From a virus: 28,050 nt of DNA. The DNA lies in the IMG/VR virus record IMGVR_UViG_3300028415_000021, positions 1-28,050 of that record; one strand, written 5' to 3'. The stretch's first letter is position 1. Each line of letters opens with the position of its first letter. Below are positions 1 to 26,132 of this stretch, in pieces. Made by a program: the position numbers and the translations under genes. The notes under the pieces are model-generated. The model was not told the origin of the DNA, ran no database searches, and saw only the letters and a program-made list of their open reading frames with translations.

Positions 1-1
1 C

Positions 2-100
2 GGGGTGACACGCGACTACCTGCGCCAGCTACGCCGCGGCGACAAGCGAATGAGCTACGCGCTGCAGCTGACCCTGGAGCGGATCGCCACCGGCGAGTAG
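2..100 (+). CDS. C-terminal end of a small helix-turn-helix regulator (5' partial)
   Basis: An open frame runs in from the left edge and stops with TAG at 98-100, giving 32 residues. The readable part contains GVTRDYLRQLRRGDKRMSYA followed by an LTLERIATGE end. The spacing of an LGV-type turn, a YLRQLRRG recognition helix and a leucine-rich closing helix resembles the second half of a Cro/CI or YdaS-like helix-turn-helix domain. The protein seems to end right after this domain, so it would be a small DNA-binding protein. It could be the factor that binds the repeated palindrome seen across the window, but nothing here proves that. Most of the gene lies outside the window and its start is unseen. 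Confidence 0.5.
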   Translation, partial: GVTRDYLRQLRRGDKRMSYALQLTLERIATGE

Positions 101-179
101 CCTGCTCCGTAGCGGGTGACTATCTGGCGCTGGAATACAAGGCCATGCTAACGGCCGCGCCAAAGCTGGGAGGTGAGTG

Positions 180-698
180 ATGAAAACCCATGAACTAAAG
201 ACGGACCCTGACGTGTTTTATGCTCTGATCTCCGGACGAAAAACATACGAGATTAGGCGTGATGATCGCGGGTTCCGAGTGGGCGATACGCTAGTTCTGC
301 GCAGGACCGTGCACTCGGGCGACGAAATGGCGCAAGGCGAGCCATTGCGCTACACCGGAGAGGAAGCCGTTCGGCGGGTTACTCACATACTCGAAGGGCC
401 TGCTTACGGGATCGCTGAAGGATGGGTAATCTTGTCAGTTAACGACACGGGGAGGGATGCCCTGGCGGCGCATGTGGAGCGGCAGAGCGCCGTGATCTTC
501 CAGACCATGGCGGCGGTAGATGAACGACTGCTACCCCTCCCTGCTCTCGAACAGAAGGTCGGCTTCAAACTCACCAAGATCCACGAACTCATCCGCGCCG
601 GCGAGTTTCCACCCGGTAAGCTCATCCAGGGCAAGCACCTGTGGCTCGAACGAGAGATCGACGACTGGATTCAGCATCAGTGGTCGTCCGCTTCCTGA
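180..698 (+). CDS. DUF3850 (ASCH/PUA-like) domain fused to an AlpA-type DNA-binding domain
   Basis: This 172-residue protein starts at ATG 180, with GGGAGG at 168-173 as ribosome binding site; a GTG lies one codon upstream. Residues 1-87 match the DUF3850 pattern: MKTHELKTDP at the start, an EIRRDDRGFRVGDTL core and a WVILSV final strand. This is a PUA-like fold of the ASCH group, usually linked to RNA or modified-base recognition. Residues about 118-167 look like an AlpA/excisionase-type winged helix: LPLPALEQKVGFKLTKIHEL, then a GKHLWLEREIDDWI wing and helix. AlpA proteins are small phage transcription regulators. A second candidate start, ATG 507, would give the AlpA part alone. The join may reflect an in-frame deletion between two neighbouring genes or a true fusion. 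The two domain calls are by eye; the DNA-binding role is inferred. Confidence 0.75.
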   Translation: MKTHELKTDPDVFYALISGRKTYEIRRDDRGFRVGDTLVLRRTVHSGDEMAQGEPLRYTGEEAVRRVTHILEGPAYGIAEGWVILSVNDTGRDALAAHVERQSAVIFQTMAAVDERLLPLPALEQKVGFKLTKIHELIRAGEFPPGKLIQGKHLWLEREIDDWIQHQWSSAS

Positions 699-836
699 CC
701 GCGAAGCCTGTCCAGGGTATGTAGAACTGGCAGTTGAACCGCGTAACGGCCATTATCTGGTGAGTGGTCAGCGGCTCAATCAGCTGCAGACCTTCGATGA
801 CATCGTGGATAGGTAGCCTATCCGGGGGAGAAGATA
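699..836 (+). other. Gap with possible coding remnant and a hairpin before the endolysin
   Basis: No complete gene is visible. One frame reads YVELAVEPRNGHYLVSGQRL and ends DDIVDR with TAG at 814-816. It looks protein-like but has no ATG, so it may be the tail of a lost gene. GGATAGG (807-813) and CCTATCC (817-823) form a 7-bp inverted repeat with a 3-base loop just before the endolysin ribosome binding site. This could be a small hairpin affecting translation or the scar of a deletion. Confidence 0.35.
722..738 (+). promoter_or_regulatory. Palindrome copy 0 (TAGAAC-N5-GTTGAA), upstream of endolysin
   Basis: TAGAAC TGGCA GTTGAA matches the recurring TTCAAC-N5-GTTGAA palindrome with two mismatches in the left arm. 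It lies in the gap ahead of the endolysin gene. It is the weakest copy; I see no clear sigma-70 boxes at a standard distance. Confidence 0.35.
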
Positions 837-1511
837 ATGAATATCGAATCTGCGCAGCGGGACATGCGGGCGCTGGGCGTGTACGGCGGGGCCATCGACG
901 GCCTCTGGGGCCCGCTCTCCGAAGCGGGCTACCAGCAGGTGCTGAGCGCCGCCCGGTCGGTGCTCGAGAAGACGCTGCACCCCGCGGCGGGCGGGCGCAC
1001 GGCGCTGGCCTGGGGGCAGAAGGTCGACGCGGCATTTCGCGAGAAGGTGCGGTCGATCTGCGCCCGGCTGGGGATTCGCGATCCCGACTGGTTGATGGCC
1101 TGCATCGCCTTCGAGACCGGCGAACGCTTTTCCCCCGACGTCGTCAACGGCGCGGGCAGCGGCGCGACCGGGCTGATCCAGTTCATGCCGCGCACCGCGC
1201 GCGGCCTGGGCACCACGACGCGGGCTCTGGCGAAGATGTCGGCGGTGGAGCAGCTGGACTTCGTCGAGCGGTACTTCCAGCCGTACAAGGGCCGCCTCAA
1301 GAACCTGGGCGACCTGTACATGGCGATTCTGTGGCCGGCGGGCATCGGCAAGGACAGCAGCTGGGAGCTCTGGGCGCGCGAGAGCCGCGAGATCACCTAC
1401 TTCCAGAACCGCGGCCTGGACGCCAACCGCGACGGCGTGATCACCCGCGGCGAGGCCGTCGCCAAGATCGAGGAGAAGCTGGAACGCGGACGCGAGTCGT
1501 TTCGCGGATAA
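837..1511 (+). CDS. Endolysin: lytic transglycosylase-like muramidase with EF-hand loop
   Basis: This 224-residue protein starts at ATG 837 behind a strong GGGGGAG site (824-830). Residues 5-35 (QRDMRALGVYGGAIDGLWGP) look like a short peptidoglycan-binding domain. Residues 80-170 resemble the SLT/lysozyme-like fold: IAFETGERF carries the likely catalytic glutamate E93, and GATGLIQFMPRTA (109-121) is the typical substrate-cleft motif. Residues 195-206, DANRDGVITRGE, fit a canonical 12-residue EF-hand loop (D195, N197, D199, G200, I202, E206), so calcium may tune activity. There is no signal peptide, so export should depend on a holin. The gene sits before the terminase, about 25 kb by sequence from the membrane-protein cassette at 26763-28050. 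Such distant placement is seen in circularly read or cos-ended phages. Family call strong, substrate bond inferred. Confidence 0.85.
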   Translation: MNIESAQRDMRALGVYGGAIDGLWGPLSEAGYQQVLSAARSVLEKTLHPAAGGRTALAWGQKVDAAFREKVRSICARLGIRDPDWLMACIAFETGERFSPDVVNGAGSGATGLIQFMPRTARGLGTTTRALAKMSAVEQLDFVERYFQPYKGRLKNLGDLYMAILWPAGIGKDSSWELWARESREITYFQNRGLDANRDGVITRGEAVAKIEEKLERGRESFRG

Positions 1512-1514
1512 ACA

Positions 1515-1531
1515 TTCAACTATTTGTTGAA
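1515..1531 (+). promoter_or_regulatory. Palindrome copy 1, perfect TTCAAC-TATTT-GTTGAA
   Basis: This is the cleanest copy, a perfect 6-bp-arm inverted repeat (7 bp counting the flanking A and T) with a 5-base centre, three bases after the endolysin stop. It serves as the reference for the family. No gene of certain integrity follows directly: the next frame is a methyltransferase remnant. No convincing -35/-10 pair was found here. Confidence 0.6.
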
Positions 1532-1589
1532 TAGACAGCCAGGGGTTGTTAGGCTGCGGGGACCATTACTCGACGAGACGGGCACCGCC

Positions 1590-1787
1590 TTGACCGCCTA
1601 CTACAACGAGAACGACCCCACGGCCGCCCAGTGGCTGCGCAACCTGATCGCCGCCGGGCTTATCGCGCCGGGGGACGTCGACGAGAGGAGCATCACCGAT
1701 GTTCGACCCGCTGATCTGCGAGGCTACGCCCAGTGCCACTTCTTCGCCGGGATCGGCGTCTGGAGCCGAGCGAGCGGGACGCGCTGA
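1590..1787 (+). pseudogene. Truncated N-terminus of a DNA (cytosine-5) methyltransferase
   Basis: The frame reads TAYYNENDPTAAQWLRNLIA and then, about 25 codons on, an aspartate-rich linker ending QCHFFAGIGVWSRA, followed by SGTR and TGA at 1785-1787. FFAGIG is motif I (cofactor binding) of C5 cytosine methyltransferases, and the preceding N-terminal layout is the one I know from phage and prophage Dcm-type enzymes. Everything after motif I is gone: the Pro-Cys catalytic loop, motif VIII and the target recognition domain. The start is also doubtful: only a TTG (1590) sits where an ATG would be expected, and the same frame runs back open to 1524 inside palindrome copy 1. A deletion joining motif I to a downstream zinc-ribbon gene explains the layout best. 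No enzyme activity is expected. Confidence 0.7.
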
Positions 1788-1893
1788 TCTGAGCGAGTGC
1801 CCGTTCTGCGACCACTGGTTCGACCAGGCGCTGCTCGGTCGCTACGGGTGTCCCAACTGTGAAGGCGAGGGGCTCGACGACGAGCTCATCTAG
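1699..1893 (+). pseudogene. Zinc-ribbon fragment or hybrid ORF downstream of the deletion scar
   Basis: An ORF from ATG 1699 overlaps the methyltransferase remnant out of frame, so its first 30 or so residues look like non-natural sequence. From CTG 1789 onward it becomes convincing: SECPFCDHWF, a short helix, then YGCPNCEGEGLDDELI. That is a two-knuckle zinc ribbon (C-x2-C and C-x2-C), like many 35-45 residue phage proteins that sit next to DNA-modifying or nucleotide genes. There is no good initiation codon at the natural boundary, where ATG may have become CTG. The fragment may still be translated as the hybrid or may be dead. It is followed directly by the dCMP deaminase, whose ribosome binding site overlaps its TAG. 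Confidence 0.5.
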
Positions 1894-12689: not shown

Positions 12690-12706
12690 TTCAACATATA
12701 GTTGCC
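12690..12706 (+). promoter_or_regulatory. Palindrome copy 4 (TTCAAC-ATATA-GTTGCC) before the tail tube gene
   Basis: The left arm is perfect and the right arm keeps GTTG. The centre holds TATAGT (12697-12702), a good -10 box, but the sequence 17 bases upstream (TACGCT) is a poor -35. TTGACC at 12679-12684 is too close. An activator or an alternative sigma contact may be needed. The gap between the palindrome end and the following ATG is 25 bases, the same as for copy 3. Confidence 0.5.
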
Positions 12707-21508: not shown

Positions 21509-21723
21509 CGGGCACACGTTTCACGACCGATGACGTGATCCGTGCGGGGGGCTGCCCGGCGGGCATCCGCCACTGGTTCACCGCGAGAGGCGACGCCCTG
21601 CCCGAGGGCGTGACACTGCGTTCGTTTATCCGCGAAGGCATGACCCTCGAGCAGGCGCGCGCCTGCCGGGACGGCTTCATCGAGCGGGCGTTGAGGATCA
21701 AGGAGGCTCGCCATGGGGGGTAA
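21505..21723 (+). CDS. Small tail-module protein of unknown function
   Basis: A 72-residue protein from ATG 21505, overlapping the previous stop by four bases and the J-like start by eleven. It begins MTGTRFTTDDVIRAGGCPAG, then IRHWFTARGDALP and SFIREGMTLEQA. This pattern (D-V-R-A-G-x-C-x-x-G-x-x-x-W-F) recurs in small proteins just before J-like genes of many siphophages, so it is probably a tip assembly factor, but its role is unknown. One cysteine, no membrane segment. Start chosen by ATGA coupling. Confidence 0.7.
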   Translation: MTGTRFTTDDVIRAGGCPAGIRHWFTARGDALPEGVTLRSFIREGMTLEQARACRDGFIERALRIKEARHGG

Positions 21724-24700
21724 GAGCGGCGGCAAGCCAAAGATGCGGGTGACTCGCTACTACCTGGCGATGCACCTCGGCATCTGCCACAGCGTCGAGG
21801 CGATCAAGGCAATCTGGGTCGGCGAGAAGAAGGCGTGGTGCGGAAACGCCGCCGAGAACGGCGCAATCGGCGTCGGCAAGGAGGGGCTGTTCGGTGGCAT
21901 GCAGAAAGAGGGCGGCGCCTCCGGCCGGATCACGGTGATGCTGGGCGGCGACACGCAGACCGCGCCGCCCTCGTTGATCCAGCGTTTGGGGACGACGGCG
22001 TCCACCACCCCGGGGTTTCGCGGCATCACGTCGCTGTTCTTCTACGGCGCGGGGGAGAGCGCGCCGGCGGACTTCAATTGGGGTGGGATGTTCGGCGCCG
22101 TCGGCCTGTTCGGCCTGGTGTTCTACAAGGGCCGCAGCTTCTACTGGGGCACCCAGCCGTACCTCAAGCCGGTATGGGTTACGGTGCAGCGTATTCCCGC
22201 GAGAGAACTGGCACCGGCGACGGCACCGATACCCCGCGGTTCGAGTAACTGCGGCAGGATCAGTGTCTACATGGAGCTGGACGACTCCGGGTCGATGGAC
22301 GACTCCGGGTCGATGGGTGGCTCCCGCCTGACCAACCTCAAGTCCGCCGTCAACATACTGCTCGACGCCATCGTAGAGCAGATCGGCCAGGGGCGGGGCT
22401 TCGATGTTGGCCTGTCCCGATTCAACGGAGGGAAGATCGAGCGGACGGGGGTCAATGCCTCCGATATTCAAGATCTTCGGAACTTCGTCGGGGCGATGGT
22501 CGCGTCGGGTTTTACGCGGTTCGATGACCCTATCGCCGACGCGGTGACCTGGTTCGAGGCGTCACGGAATAACGTCGACCTGGTGCGGAGGGTAAACTTC
22601 TTCATTACCGACGGTCTCCCTAGCTTCGGCAGCGACGACACAGCCGCGAGTATCGCCTCCGAACTGCTCGACCGCACTATTCCCGTCGATATGTACGGTA
22701 TCAACATCGACCTGCAGGACACCTCAGCCACCGCCAAACTCGACAACACCCCCGAGGACGGCGTACCTGTGGTCTCTGGTGGCGACGCCCAGGCGCTCGC
22801 CGACATTTTTGCGGGCGCGCTCCTCGACATCTTCGAGGCCAACCCCGCGCACGTTATCTATGAGTGCCTGACGGATACCGACTGGGGGATGGGCGCCGAT
22901 CCGGCGGGGATCGACACGGCGAGCTTTCAGGCGGCGTCCGTCACGCTCTATGACGAAGTCTTCGGCGTGTTCCTGCAATGGCAGGCGCAGAGCACGATCC
23001 AGGAGTTCGTCAACGACGTCCTCGATCATATTCGCGGCGCTACCTACCCCGACCCACGCACCGGCCAGATCGCCCTCAAGCTGCTGCGCGACGACCTGGA
23101 CGTGCCCAACCTCAAGACGATCACCCCGGATAACGCGACGCTGATCAGCTTCGCGCGCAAGGGTTGGGGCGAGACGGTCAACGAGGTGGTGATCACCTGG
23201 ACCAACCCGGACACCGAGAAAGAGGAGACCGTCTTCGCCCAGGACCTGGCCAACATCGCCATTCAGGGCGGGGTCGTCTCGAGCAGCAAGAACTACCACG
23301 GCATCCGTACCCGGGCGCTGGCTGCGCAGGTTGCCGAACGTGACCTGCGCGAGGAGAGCGCACCGCTCAGTAGCTGTGAGGTCGAGGTCAACCGGGAGTT
23401 CTGGGACGTCACCCCGTTCGACGGCATGAAGGTCACCTGGCCCGAGTTCGGCCTGGATGAACTGGTGATGCGCGTGATGAAGGTCGACTACGGTGACAGC
23501 CAGTCCTCTGTGATCAAGCTGTCACTGGTCGAGGACGTGTTTTCGCTGGCCATGGCCACCTACGTCGAGCCGGCCGCGGGCGAGTGGGTCAACCCCTCGG
23601 CCCCGCCGATACCGGTCACTCAGGCGCGCCTGATGCCGCCGCCGGCCTATGCGGTCAGCAACTACGGCACCGACCCCGCGGCCGTGGTGTACCCGTCGAC
23701 CGGTGCCGTGCCGCTGGCCACCAACCCCACCACGGACGGCTCGGCGCAGTATGACGTGCTGCGTGAGGTCGCCACGCCCTCGGGGGGCACTACCTTCCAG
23801 ACCTCGGGCAGCACTCGTGACTTCCCCGCGCGCGCGACCCTTCCTGCGGAGTTGATCGCCGCCGTGACCTCGACCGGGGTGCTGCTCGATGGGCTCACGG
23901 GCATAGGCCCCGTGGTCGAGGACCTGCTGCTGATCGGTGACGACGCGCTGCCCAACGAGGAGATGGAGCTGGCGTTGGTGACCGCCGTCGACGGTACTAC
24001 CGGGGCGCTGACGCTGCTGCGCGGCGCGCTCGACACGGTGCCTGTGACCTGGCCGCTGGGAACGCTGGTGCAGGCCACGCCGCTGGCTATGTGGCAGCCG
24101 CTGCCCATCGAACTGATTGACGGGCAGACGGTCACGCTCAAGTTCTTGACCAGCACGGGCCAGGGGATGCTGGAGGACTACGACGCGCCGGAGTTCATCG
24201 GCACCGCACAGGCACGGCCGGACAAGCCCACCCGGGCGGCCAACGTCAAGATCAACGGCCAAGGCATCGAGACGCCTGACCTCGTGCTGGATAGCCCCGA
24301 GGTGGTACTGACCTGGTCGCACAGGAACCGGCTGCTCGAAGACGCGGTGATGTACGCCTGGGACGCGGCGTCGCTGCCGGTCGAGGCGGGCACGACCTAC
24401 ACCGTCACCTTGTTCGACGAGACGGACGCCCAGTTCGCCCAGCAGGCGGGCCTGACCGGGGAGACCTGGACATCGCTTGCCGCCGATGAGCTGGCGCTGG
24501 GCTTCCTCGAGGCCCCCTACAGCGGCATCTTCACCTACAGCGGCACCCTGCCCACGCCGGGAGCCCGGTTTGGCTCCACGGTCACCGCGCGTCTCGCGAC
24601 GCACCGTGACGGCGTTGACGCCTGGCAGGATTTCGAGATCACCGGTGAGCGTGCCGGCTACGGCTACGGCTACGGAAACCATTACGGAGGACCGGCATAA
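21713..24700 (+). CDS. J-like tail tip protein carrying an inserted vWFA (MIDAS) domain
   Basis: A 995-residue protein with ATG 21713 and AAGGAGG nearby (21700-21706). Residues 1-165 (MRVTRYYLAMHLGICHSVEA, then LKPVWVTVQRIPARE) and 377 onward (ANPAHVIYECLTDTDWGMGA) are the usual tail-tip scaffold. In between, residues about 183-376 form a von Willebrand A domain: strand ISVYMELDDSGSM, helix RLTNLKSAVNILLDAIV, T268 in SGFTRFDDP and D300 in NFFITDGLPSFG. These give the complete MIDAS set DxSxS, T, D. DDSGSM occurs twice in tandem (190-195, 196-201). The insert uses ATA, AGG, CGA and CGG codons far more than the flanks. The C-terminal half is a chain of beta domains and ends in a Tyr-Gly-rich tail. 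It should face the host cell; the vWFA may bind a metal-dependent surface ligand. Confidence 0.85.
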   Translation: MGGKSGGKPKMRVTRYYLAMHLGICHSVEAIKAIWVGEKKAWCGNAAENGAIGVGKEGLFGGMQKEGGASGRITVMLGGDTQTAPPSLIQRLGTTASTTPGFRGITSLFFYGAGESAPADFNWGGMFGAVGLFGLVFYKGRSFYWGTQPYLKPVWVTVQRIPARELAPATAPIPRGSSNCGRISVYMELDDSGSMDDSGSMGGSRLTNLKSAVNILLDAIVEQIGQGRGFDVGLSRFNGGKIERTGVNASDIQDLRNFVGAMVASGFTRFDDPIADAVTWFEASRNNVDLVRRVNFFITDGLPSFGSDDTAASIASELLDRTIPVDMYGINIDLQDTSATAKLDNTPEDGVPVVSGGDAQALADIFAGALLDIFEANPAHVIYECLTDTDWGMGADPAGIDTASFQAASVTLYDEVFGVFLQWQAQSTIQEFVNDVLDHIRGATYPDPRTGQIALKLLRDDLDVPNLKTITPDNATLISFARKGWGETVNEVVITWTNPDTEKEETVFAQDLANIAIQGGVVSSSKNYHGIRTRALAAQVAERDLREESAPLSSCEVEVNREFWDVTPFDGMKVTWPEFGLDELVMRVMKVDYGDSQSSVIKLSLVEDVFSLAMATYVEPAAGEWVNPSAPPIPVTQARLMPPPAYAVSNYGTDPAAVVYPSTGAVPLATNPTTDGSAQYDVLREVATPSGGTTFQTSGSTRDFPARATLPAELIAAVTSTGVLLDGLTGIGPVVEDLLLIGDDALPNEEMELALVTAVDGTTGALTLLRGALDTVPVTWPLGTLVQATPLAMWQPLPIELIDGQTVTLKFLTSTGQGMLEDYDAPEFIGTAQARPDKPTRAANVKINGQGIETPDLVLDSPEVVLTWSHRNRLLEDAVMYAWDAASLPVEAGTTYTVTLFDETDAQFAQQAGLTGETWTSLAADELALGFLEAPYSGIFTYSGTLPTPGARFGSTVTARLATHRDGVDAWQDFEITGERAGYGYGYGNHYGGPA
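22280..22315 (+). repeat. Perfect 18-bp tandem duplication of the MIDAS codons
   Basis: GACGACTCCGGGTCGATG occurs twice back to back (22280-22297 and 22298-22315), giving Asp-Asp-Ser-Gly-Ser-Met twice. The duplication is in frame and silent in neither copy. The first copy is placed right for the preceding strand, the second for the following helix. Confidence 0.95.
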
Positions 24701-25593
24701 TGCCCTCATCACAATCCCCTAACGTGGGGCTCAATCATAGCTGGGACCTCGGCGAGTCCGGCTGGAACCTGCAGATGGACGAGAACCTGCGGGCGCTTGA
24801 CGCTCTGCTGTTCCTGACCGTGGCCTCGATGACCGCCAGCATCCCCGGATCGCCGGCCGCGGGGGACCGTTACATCGTGCCCGCAGGCGCCACAGGTGCC
24901 TGGACTGGCCACGGGGGTAAGGTGGCCCGTTTCGACGGCACCGCCTGGGAGTTCTACACGCCCAAGAACGGCTGGATCGCTTACGTCACTGACATCGCCG
25001 TTCATAAGAAGTACAACGGCACGTCATGGGCGGGTAGCGTCTCCACGACGACAGCGGAGAACCGCGGCGGGGCGGTCAACGTCTTCCTGCAGAAGGTCGG
25101 GGCGGTGTTGCGTTTCAGGACGTTGGAGGCCGGGGACAACGTGGCGTTTGATACCACGACCAACCCGGACGTTATCAAGATAAACGCCTCAGCCTCGGGC
25201 GGAAGCGGCGGTATCCCGGAAGCCCCCAACGACGCTTTTGCCTATGTGCGCAAGGCGCTAGGCTGGGTACGCGGTATCACTCAGGGCGGCGACACCCTCC
25301 TTAACGTCCGCGAGACCGTGCAATCCGTCACCACCGGCAGCGTCGATGCCAACCTGGGGGCCATCGCTAACATGACGCTGAGCGCCAACGCCACGCTGAA
25401 CGTGACCAATCTGGACAGCGGGCAGTCGCTGCTGCTGATCATCAAGAACGGCGATACCTACACGATGAACTGGACGACGAACCACACGATCACCTGGATC
25501 GGCGGAGGTGTGCCGACACTAGCTGCCGAGACACACATCGAGCTGCTACAAAATGGCGCCACGCTCTACGGCTATAATGTGGGGGATGCCTGA
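24700..25593 (+). CDS. Tail fibre / receptor-region protein with DUF2793 N-terminus
   Basis: A 297-residue protein; ATG 24700 shares its A with the preceding stop. The start (PNVGLNHSWDLGESGWNLQM, then DENLRALDALL) and the PGSPAAGDRYIVPAGATGAW stretch match DUF2793, known in phage tail-fibre and tip proteins, often in DUF2793-type tailspike adaptors. The middle (VFLQKVGAVLRFRTLEAGDN, then TTTNPDVIKINASASGGSGG) resembles a collagen-like or beta-helix hinge. The C-terminal half (ANLGAIANMTLSANATLNVT) is a repetitive beta domain typical of short fibre knobs. It probably binds to the J-like tip and holds the fibre. Stop at 25591-25593 shares its last base with the next start. Confidence 0.8.
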   Translation: MPSSQSPNVGLNHSWDLGESGWNLQMDENLRALDALLFLTVASMTASIPGSPAAGDRYIVPAGATGAWTGHGGKVARFDGTAWEFYTPKNGWIAYVTDIAVHKKYNGTSWAGSVSTTTAENRGGAVNVFLQKVGAVLRFRTLEAGDNVAFDTTTNPDVIKINASASGGSGGIPEAPNDAFAYVRKALGWVRGITQGGDTLLNVRETVQSVTTGSVDANLGAIANMTLSANATLNVTNLDSGQSLLLIIKNGDTYTMNWTTNHTITWIGGGVPTLAAETHIELLQNGATLYGYNVGDA

Positions 25594-26132
25594 TGCTACA
25601 TCATCGACTGAGAGCAGTAACAACAGCCAGTGGCTTGGTGCCCATCGTCCCGACCAGCATCGCTGGCGGACGGGACCACTCGTTGGCGCTCAAGGATGAC
25701 GGCACGGTTGTCGCCTGGGGCAGTAACTCCTTTGGCCAGTCCTCGGTGCCGGGTGGCTTAACTGACGTGGTGCAGGTCGCTGGCGGACGGCGCCACTCTC
25801 TAGCGCTCAAAGACGACGGCACGGTTGTCGCCTGGGGCAATAACTCCTATGGCCAGTCTTCGGTGCCGTCCGGTTTGACCGGCGTAGTACAGGTCGCTGG
25901 CGGCGGGTACCACTCGTTGGCGGTCAAAGACGACGGCACGGTTGTCGCCTGGGGCCATGGGGGCTATGGCCAGTCCTCGGTGCCGGGTGGCTTAACTGAC
26001 GTGGTGCAGGTCTTTGGCGGCGAGTACCACTCATTGGCGGTCAAAGACGACGGCACGGTTGTCGCCTGGGGCTATGACTACTTTGGCCAGTCTTCGGTGC
26101 CGTCCGGTCTGGTGGCCTACGTGCCAGACTGA
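25593..26132 (+). CDS. RCC1-type repeat protein in tail-fibre position
   Basis: A 179-residue protein from ATG 25593, overlapping the DUF2793 stop by one base (TGATG). Four 39-residue RCC1-like repeats (24-62, 63-101, 102-140, 141-179) each read HSLA(L/V)KDDGTVVAWG-xxxx-GQSSVP-x-GL. Repeats of this kind form beta-propeller blades; a full propeller needs more blades, so the protein may oligomerise. Blades differ mainly before HS (RD, RR, GY, EY) and after WG (SNSF, NNSY, HGGY, YDYF). Repeats 1 and 3 share PGGLTDVVQV, while 2 and 4 share PSGL, so a 234-bp unit was probably doubled. No signal peptide or membrane segment. Receptor binding is inferred from position and variation. Confidence 0.8.
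   Translation: MLHHRLRAVTTASGLVPIVPTSIAGGRDHSLALKDDGTVVAWGSNSFGQSSVPGGLTDVVQVAGGRRHSLALKDDGTVVAWGNNSYGQSSVPSGLTGVVQVAGGGYHSLAVKDDGTVVAWGHGGYGQSSVPGGLTDVVQVFGGEYHSLAVKDDGTVVAWGYDYFGQSSVPSGLVAYVPD
25662..26129 (+). repeat. Four tandem 117-bp near-identical repeats
   Basis: Repeat units begin at 25662, 25779, 25896 and 26013, each exactly 117 bases on. The core GACGGCACGGTTGTCGCCTG recurs in every unit, with variation clustered in two short windows per unit. Units 1/3 and 2/4 are closest, implying a doubling of a two-unit block. Such DNA can lose or gain units by homologous recombination. Confidence 0.95.

Follow-up and report, generated by a model that had tools for sequence, protein, structure and literature searches.

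The systems closest to the gene examined here are the DUF3850 family (PF12961; PDB entry 3iuw) and the AlpA, TorI, GIsul2 Xis and RdfS excisionases. For AlpA of the Shewanella prophage CP4So, the accessible portion of the published account reports that excision has been demonstrated (PMC5148205). Phages also carry ParB-CTPase-DUF3850 fusions, which the part of the source available to us describes as frequent and as adjoining parA (PMC12704722). Finally, the YqfB-type ASCH amidohydrolase is characterized, again in the accessible part of its report, by the triad Lys21-Thr24-Glu74 acting with Arg26 (PMC6972931).

The window, by which we mean the whole 28,050-nucleotide stretch of viral DNA that was analysed (IMG/VR record IMGVR_UViG_3300028415_000021), carries near its left end a frame that starts at GTG 177 or ATG 180 and reaches its stop at 698 on the plus strand. 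The initial annotation had claimed that DUF3850 and AlpA domains are joined in this frame, and the open frame, in which Pfam names both domains, bears this out. Comparison with relatives makes it probable that the gene is a mosaic, in which a DUF3850 cassette was joined to an excisionase-type AlpA gene and then to an unrelated phage backbone. The relevant features, each with its basis, are as follows.

180 to 698, plus strand: DUF3850-AlpA fusion gene, 172 aa (open frame and Pfam matches for both domains)
186 to 437, plus strand: DUF3850 (ASCH/PUA-like) domain, residues 3-86 (PF12961 and structure model)
525 to 671, plus strand: AlpA winged-helix domain, residues 116-164 (PF05930, structure model, Foldseek matches to excisionases)
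159 to 466, plus strand: DUF3850 cassette in common with locus L001, 95.8% DNA identity (DNA alignment)
454 to 483, plus strand: linker encoding (E)RDALAAHVER, a DNA stretch conserved among coiled-coil early genes (DNA identity to coil genes)
507 to 698, plus strand: AlpA gene proper, probable ancestral start Met110 (comparison with locus L207)
677 to 719, minus strand: integrase stub of ~14 3′-terminal codons (TLDRLRGQEADDH, stop), truncated at 719/720 (C-terminus of the L207 integrase)
719/720, no strand: joint of the temperate-phage module (to 719) with the L047-like backbone (720 on) (comparison with locus L047)
722 to 738, no strand: palindrome copy with 2 mismatches, TAGAACTGGCAGTTGAA, in the backbone part (also at L047 3149-3165)

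Both domains are recognized by independent profile collections. Specifically, Pfam assigns residues 3-86 to DUF3850 (PF12961) at 83.4 bits and E 1.3e-23, which passes the cut-off of 22.9. Phage_AlpA (PF05930) passes marginally when the whole protein is scanned (21.3 bits, cut-off 21) and scores 24.2 bits against the same cut-off when residues 101-172 are scanned alone, and HTH_17 falls under its cut-off (23.8 versus 27). In PHROGs, the N-terminal part matches phrog_986, 'RNA-binding protein' (E 5.7e-31), and the C-terminal part matches phrog_66, 'excisionase and transcriptional regulator' (E 1.6e-5). Because both collections match both parts, the two-domain frame is truly present in the sequence. 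A match to phrog_597 across both halves (E 0.0025) was set aside as hardly better than that of the AlpA half alone (E 0.012). An HTH-like scrap at 2-97, considered as a partner, has no match in Pfam, PHROGs or phages.

Structure prediction, proposed earlier as a check on the gene, yields an ASCH-like fold for DUF3850 and a winged helix for AlpA. The DUF3850 part is modelled at pLDDT mostly 72-92 and matches the ASCH-like protein 3iuw (Foldseek E 6.4e-8, TM (target) 0.87-0.89), in agreement with the PUA-like nature that the initial annotation had given it. The AlpA half was poor in this first model (pLDDT 42-56) and for this reason was modelled apart, on the C-terminal part alone and from four sequences, which gave a winged helix with core pLDDT 82-88. 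When this second model is submitted to Foldseek, the excisionases TorI, GIsul2 Xis and RdfS take ranks 1, 2 and 4 with prob 0.99-1.00, at E values of 0.005-0.04, none of them at or below 0.001. A profile built from these four sequences matches 8c3t, a GIsul2 excisionase entry, at E 1.8e-9 and TorI at E 8e-4.

The window protein thus resembles the described DUF3850 proteins in sequence family, conserved residues and fold; the MKTHEL start and K21, E24, R26, D29 and R30 are conserved in 12/12 rows of the alignment. It departs from its DUF3850 relatives, which are mostly short or carry other tails, in having a linker and an AlpA domain. Against the YqfB residues given in the accessible part of PMC6972931, and with positions equated by the K21/+3/+5 spacing rather than by alignment with YqfB, the spacing of Lys21 and Arg26 is preserved, but the position of the Thr24 nucleophile is Glu in all 12 DUF3850 rows and that of Asp27 is Arg in the window protein. 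YqfB-like catalysis was rejected for DUF3850, since the triad is incomplete when Thr24 is missing. The ParB-CTPase-DUF3850 proteins, as far as the accessible part of PMC12704722 describes them, are alike in using DUF3850 as a phage fusion partner, but the partner there is a domain other than AlpA, and the DUF3850-AlpA combination was met once. The AlpA half shares the winged-helix fold and phrog_66 with the known excisionases, and its closest relative adjoins an integrase; it differs in sitting behind DUF3850 and in having a mere stub for its integrase.

The DUF3850-AlpA order, which the initial annotation had suggested seeking in other phages, was not found in those covered here. In all relatives inspected each domain occurs as a gene of its own, which, as far as the searches reach, is the first of the outcomes that the initial annotation had named as counting against its proposal; entries that closely resemble the window record may lie outside the scope of these searches. 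No ORF holds both domains among 82 DUF3850 ORFs on viral contigs (from the best 80 of 538 confirmed loci, a profile-based set in which several look near-identical), nor among 60 AlpA ORFs from 58 AlpA loci on viral contigs. Twelve of the first 13 DUF3850 loci lack AlpA in frame, and the other, L001, stops too early to judge. DUF3850 occurs in 3 of 369 gammaproteobacterial genomes, as frames of 91-136 aa, and whole-protein matches in the same genomes include no frame that spans both domains. Of the phage records matching the query protein, 0/407 cover 80% of it; among plasmid records, 1/167 does so, spuriously. This Cupriavidus plasmid match (H89, 98% of the query covered) was rejected, as its alignment crosses two stops and the next gene lies in another frame. 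A DNA search with window positions 1-719 gave no match in phages or plasmids, and a whole-protein scan of genome contigs returned one relative, of the DUF3850 part only. Because no second complete copy was found, the exact joint of the fusion is known from one contig. One 3.2-kb locus, L152, holds a 298-aa DUF3850 ORF and an AlpA-profile ORF that are not joined in one frame.

The strongest single piece of evidence for where the AlpA half probably came from is its closest relative among the 58 AlpA loci, L207, in which AlpA is a stand-alone 61-aa gene that is 72% identical in the matched stretch. The L207 protein begins MANNRLLPLP, and its window counterpart reads MAAVDERLLPLP from residue 110 on. 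In L207 a coil-type gene is followed by AlpA and then by a convergent integrase. Window positions 525-714 are 79% identical to this locus at the DNA level, and the likeness extends beyond the AlpA stop, whose region in the L207 match overlaps the 3′ end of the convergent integrase gene. The L207 integrase ends in YVDSLRGQEAEAH, stop; the window reads TLDRLRGQEADDH, stop, and then the likeness is lost. No match to the PF00589 integrase was found in the window record, which may itself be a fragment, so the partner integrase expected beside an excisionase is a stub here and intact in L207. Together, the L207 match and the stub indicate that the AlpA half derives from a gene of the excisionase type that closed the early operon of a temperate phage.

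The DUF3850 half points to a different relative. L001 is the sole relative that matches the DUF3850 part at high identity; left of position 159 the window and L001 differ, and the L001 contig ends three bases past the alignment. Directly before DUF3850, L001 has a short gene that is similar to the N-terminal portion of the L029 coil gene (51% over 59 aa, E 5e-18). The linker DNA is identical to the coil genes of L031 at 28/28 bases and of L027 and L034 at 29/30. Seventeen contig stretches carry the back-translated linker motif; by our judgement 12 of them are such coil genes, whereas the remaining 5 encode unrelated proteins. Judged by this identity, the linker is a leftover of a coiled-coil early gene of the kind often found upstream of AlpA-type genes. 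The last bases of L001 differ slightly from the coil consensus, which counts against the mosaic reading. In a separate part of L001, a single ORF at positions 924-2525 combines a YqaJ exonuclease domain with a C-terminal one that resembles the RecBCD inhibitor gp5.9 of T7 (PF25708, 45.5 bits, cut-off 24.5).

Gene order around the coil genes is in keeping with that of L207. In all six loci examined for order (L016, L017, L027, L029, L126 and L207), a coil-type gene leads to an AlpA or HTH_17 gene, either directly or with one or two small genes between. An integrase comes next in L017, L027, L029, L126 and L207, and the L016 contig ends at that point. In L029 and L126 the gene after the coil is of the HTH_17 type, and none of its PF05930 scores passes the cut-off. 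No PF05930 match was found in the coil-bearing records G004, G006, G008 (the record of L029), G009, G010 and G011, and the negative results for G004, G006, G009, G010 and G011 mean that the coil-AlpA neighbourhood is not universal.

A second discontinuity lies at 719/720. Window positions 720-1875 are 99.65% identical to L047, which lacks the fusion gene upstream and has another gene at the matching place. Upstream of its 720-equivalent, L047 encodes the end of a DNA polymerase, an endonuclease-like gene and a SNF2-type helicase, as read from the translations; for the helicase, the only matches are to DEAD and ResIII, both under cut-off. Since the sequence from 720 onward follows L047 while the upstream sequence does not, the stretches to 719 and from 720 differ in origin. 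Third-position GC accords with the joints, at 0.58 for DUF3850, 0.76 for linker plus AlpA, 0.93 for the endolysin and 0.89 for the terminase, and we attribute these steps to pieces of different origin. A C5 cytosine methylase is represented at window positions 1591-1787 by its N-terminal part, which an out-of-frame internal deletion at ~1763 interrupts. The same methylase joint is found in L047, the C-terminal part is present in L037 and L038, and an HNH-like frame adjoins this C-terminal part in L038. Elsewhere in the window, positions 21713-24700 presumably encode a large tail-region protein, with a VWA-like stretch (YMELDDSGSM...) in its translation, and positions 25593-26132 encode what we take to be an RCC1-like repeat protein (HSLALKDDGTVVAWG...) that adjoins the tail genes.

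From this synteny we infer the following course of events. Bases 159-719 would stem from a temperate phage, as the right-hand end of its early operon, with a DUF3850 cassette, coil-gene remnant, excisionase-type AlpA and convergent integrase tail. The single frame would have been made by loss of the tail and stop of the coil gene, along with whatever separated the conserved RDALAAHVER codons from the AlpA start. The whole piece would then have been joined to an unrelated phage backbone at 719/720, a joint that is read from the sequence. If produced, the AlpA half would be a small DNA-binding protein with a winged helix, of the excisionase (recombination-directionality) type; it would bind near the att site and steer the integrase, and DUF3850 would be a tethered, probably passenger, ASCH-like domain that binds nucleic acid or nucleotides. 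No intact integrase appears to remain in the window record for AlpA to steer. By analogy with AlpA of CP4So, for which we draw on the accessible part of the report (PMC5148205), the AlpA half would most likely act as an excisionase-type DNA-binding protein. Two normally separate pieces that meet at a seeming recombination joint probably constitute a one-off mosaic, rather than a purpose-built regulator.

It is not certain that the fusion frame exists in a living phage, because it lies within the first 720 bases of the contig and because its high-identity relative, L001, ends after the alignment. A contig-end chimera, in which amplification or assembly attached the first ~720 bases, or the stretch between ~466 and 719, to the rest and the fusion or its placement therefore occurs in no phage, is unlikely but is the most serious rival of the mosaic. 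It would explain why the 719/720 joint truncates an integrase gene and falls close to where the contig begins, why the same backbone has other upstream genes in L047, and why the L001 contig stops at conserved coil DNA, a stretch nearly identical in other phages. However, the sequence in common amounts to just ~28-30 bases at the coil and ~2 bases at 719/720, and the fused frame remains open through the joint. Moreover, the methylase deletion, another odd joint, recurs in L047 as a separate contig, which argues that such unusual joints are genuine in this group of phages.

Another reading retains the sequence but divides the product. DUF3850 and the coil tail would be translated from ATG 180, and AlpA from Met110 or GTG 492; with a separate internal start for AlpA, the fusion would have no meaning of its own. 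Met110 coincides with the start of the stand-alone L207 AlpA, and a GGAG lies 12 bases upstream of GTG 492, but inspection of the sequence reveals no good ribosome-binding site directly before Met110, and we consider the two-product arrangement improbable. We give about the same small weight to a fusion that is both real and selected, as an excisionase gated by its ASCH-like domain. Excision or early transcription would then respond to whatever DUF3850 binds, be it a modified nucleotide, RNA or DNA base, and temperate phages of the L001 type would be expected to carry this gene together with a complete integrase. Such a gene would tie the sensing of nucleotides or RNA to the excision of a prophage.

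The TTCAAC-N5-GTTGAA palindromes are enriched in the window, with 27 sites at up to 3 mismatches versus 3.9 expected and with as many in 0/100 shuffles; an exact copy lies at 1515-1531. Copies also occur in L047 (1305, 3149 and 3942), L037 (1241) and L038 (1952), and in these fragments of 4.3-5.6 kb the fusion protein has no match, so that sites and gene do not co-occur there. By this comparison the palindromes appear to belong to the backbone of the second phage, in which they are possibly an operator or promoter element of the phage group. Within the backbone, sites that fall in intergenic regions or close to them include window 1515-1531, 2851-2867 and 12690-12706 and L047 1305-1321. The initial annotation had placed the gene just before a palindrome copy and had read this as a sign of regulation. 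The copy at 722-738 is there, but it is backbone sequence right after the joint, and the closeness is therefore a product of the joint. The regulator proposed on these grounds, in which DUF3850 would sense a modified nucleotide or RNA and AlpA would control the palindrome sites, is very improbable: it draws on the two domains being in frame, on the palindrome enrichment and on the DUF3850 fusions to a ParB-CTPase fold in phages (PMC12704722, accessible part), but the fusion was met once and its domains are separate elsewhere, the backbone fragments have the sites without the gene, and AlpA relatives adjoin integrases. A link between the fusion and palindrome control accordingly has no support.

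A practical consequence is that fused frames near contig ends should be checked against relatives before they are called regulators. If the mosaic reading is correct, this case shows the birth of a new two-domain phage protein at a module border, where a cassette from elsewhere would have met an excision gene, with a stretch of conserved coiled-coil sequence as the joint.
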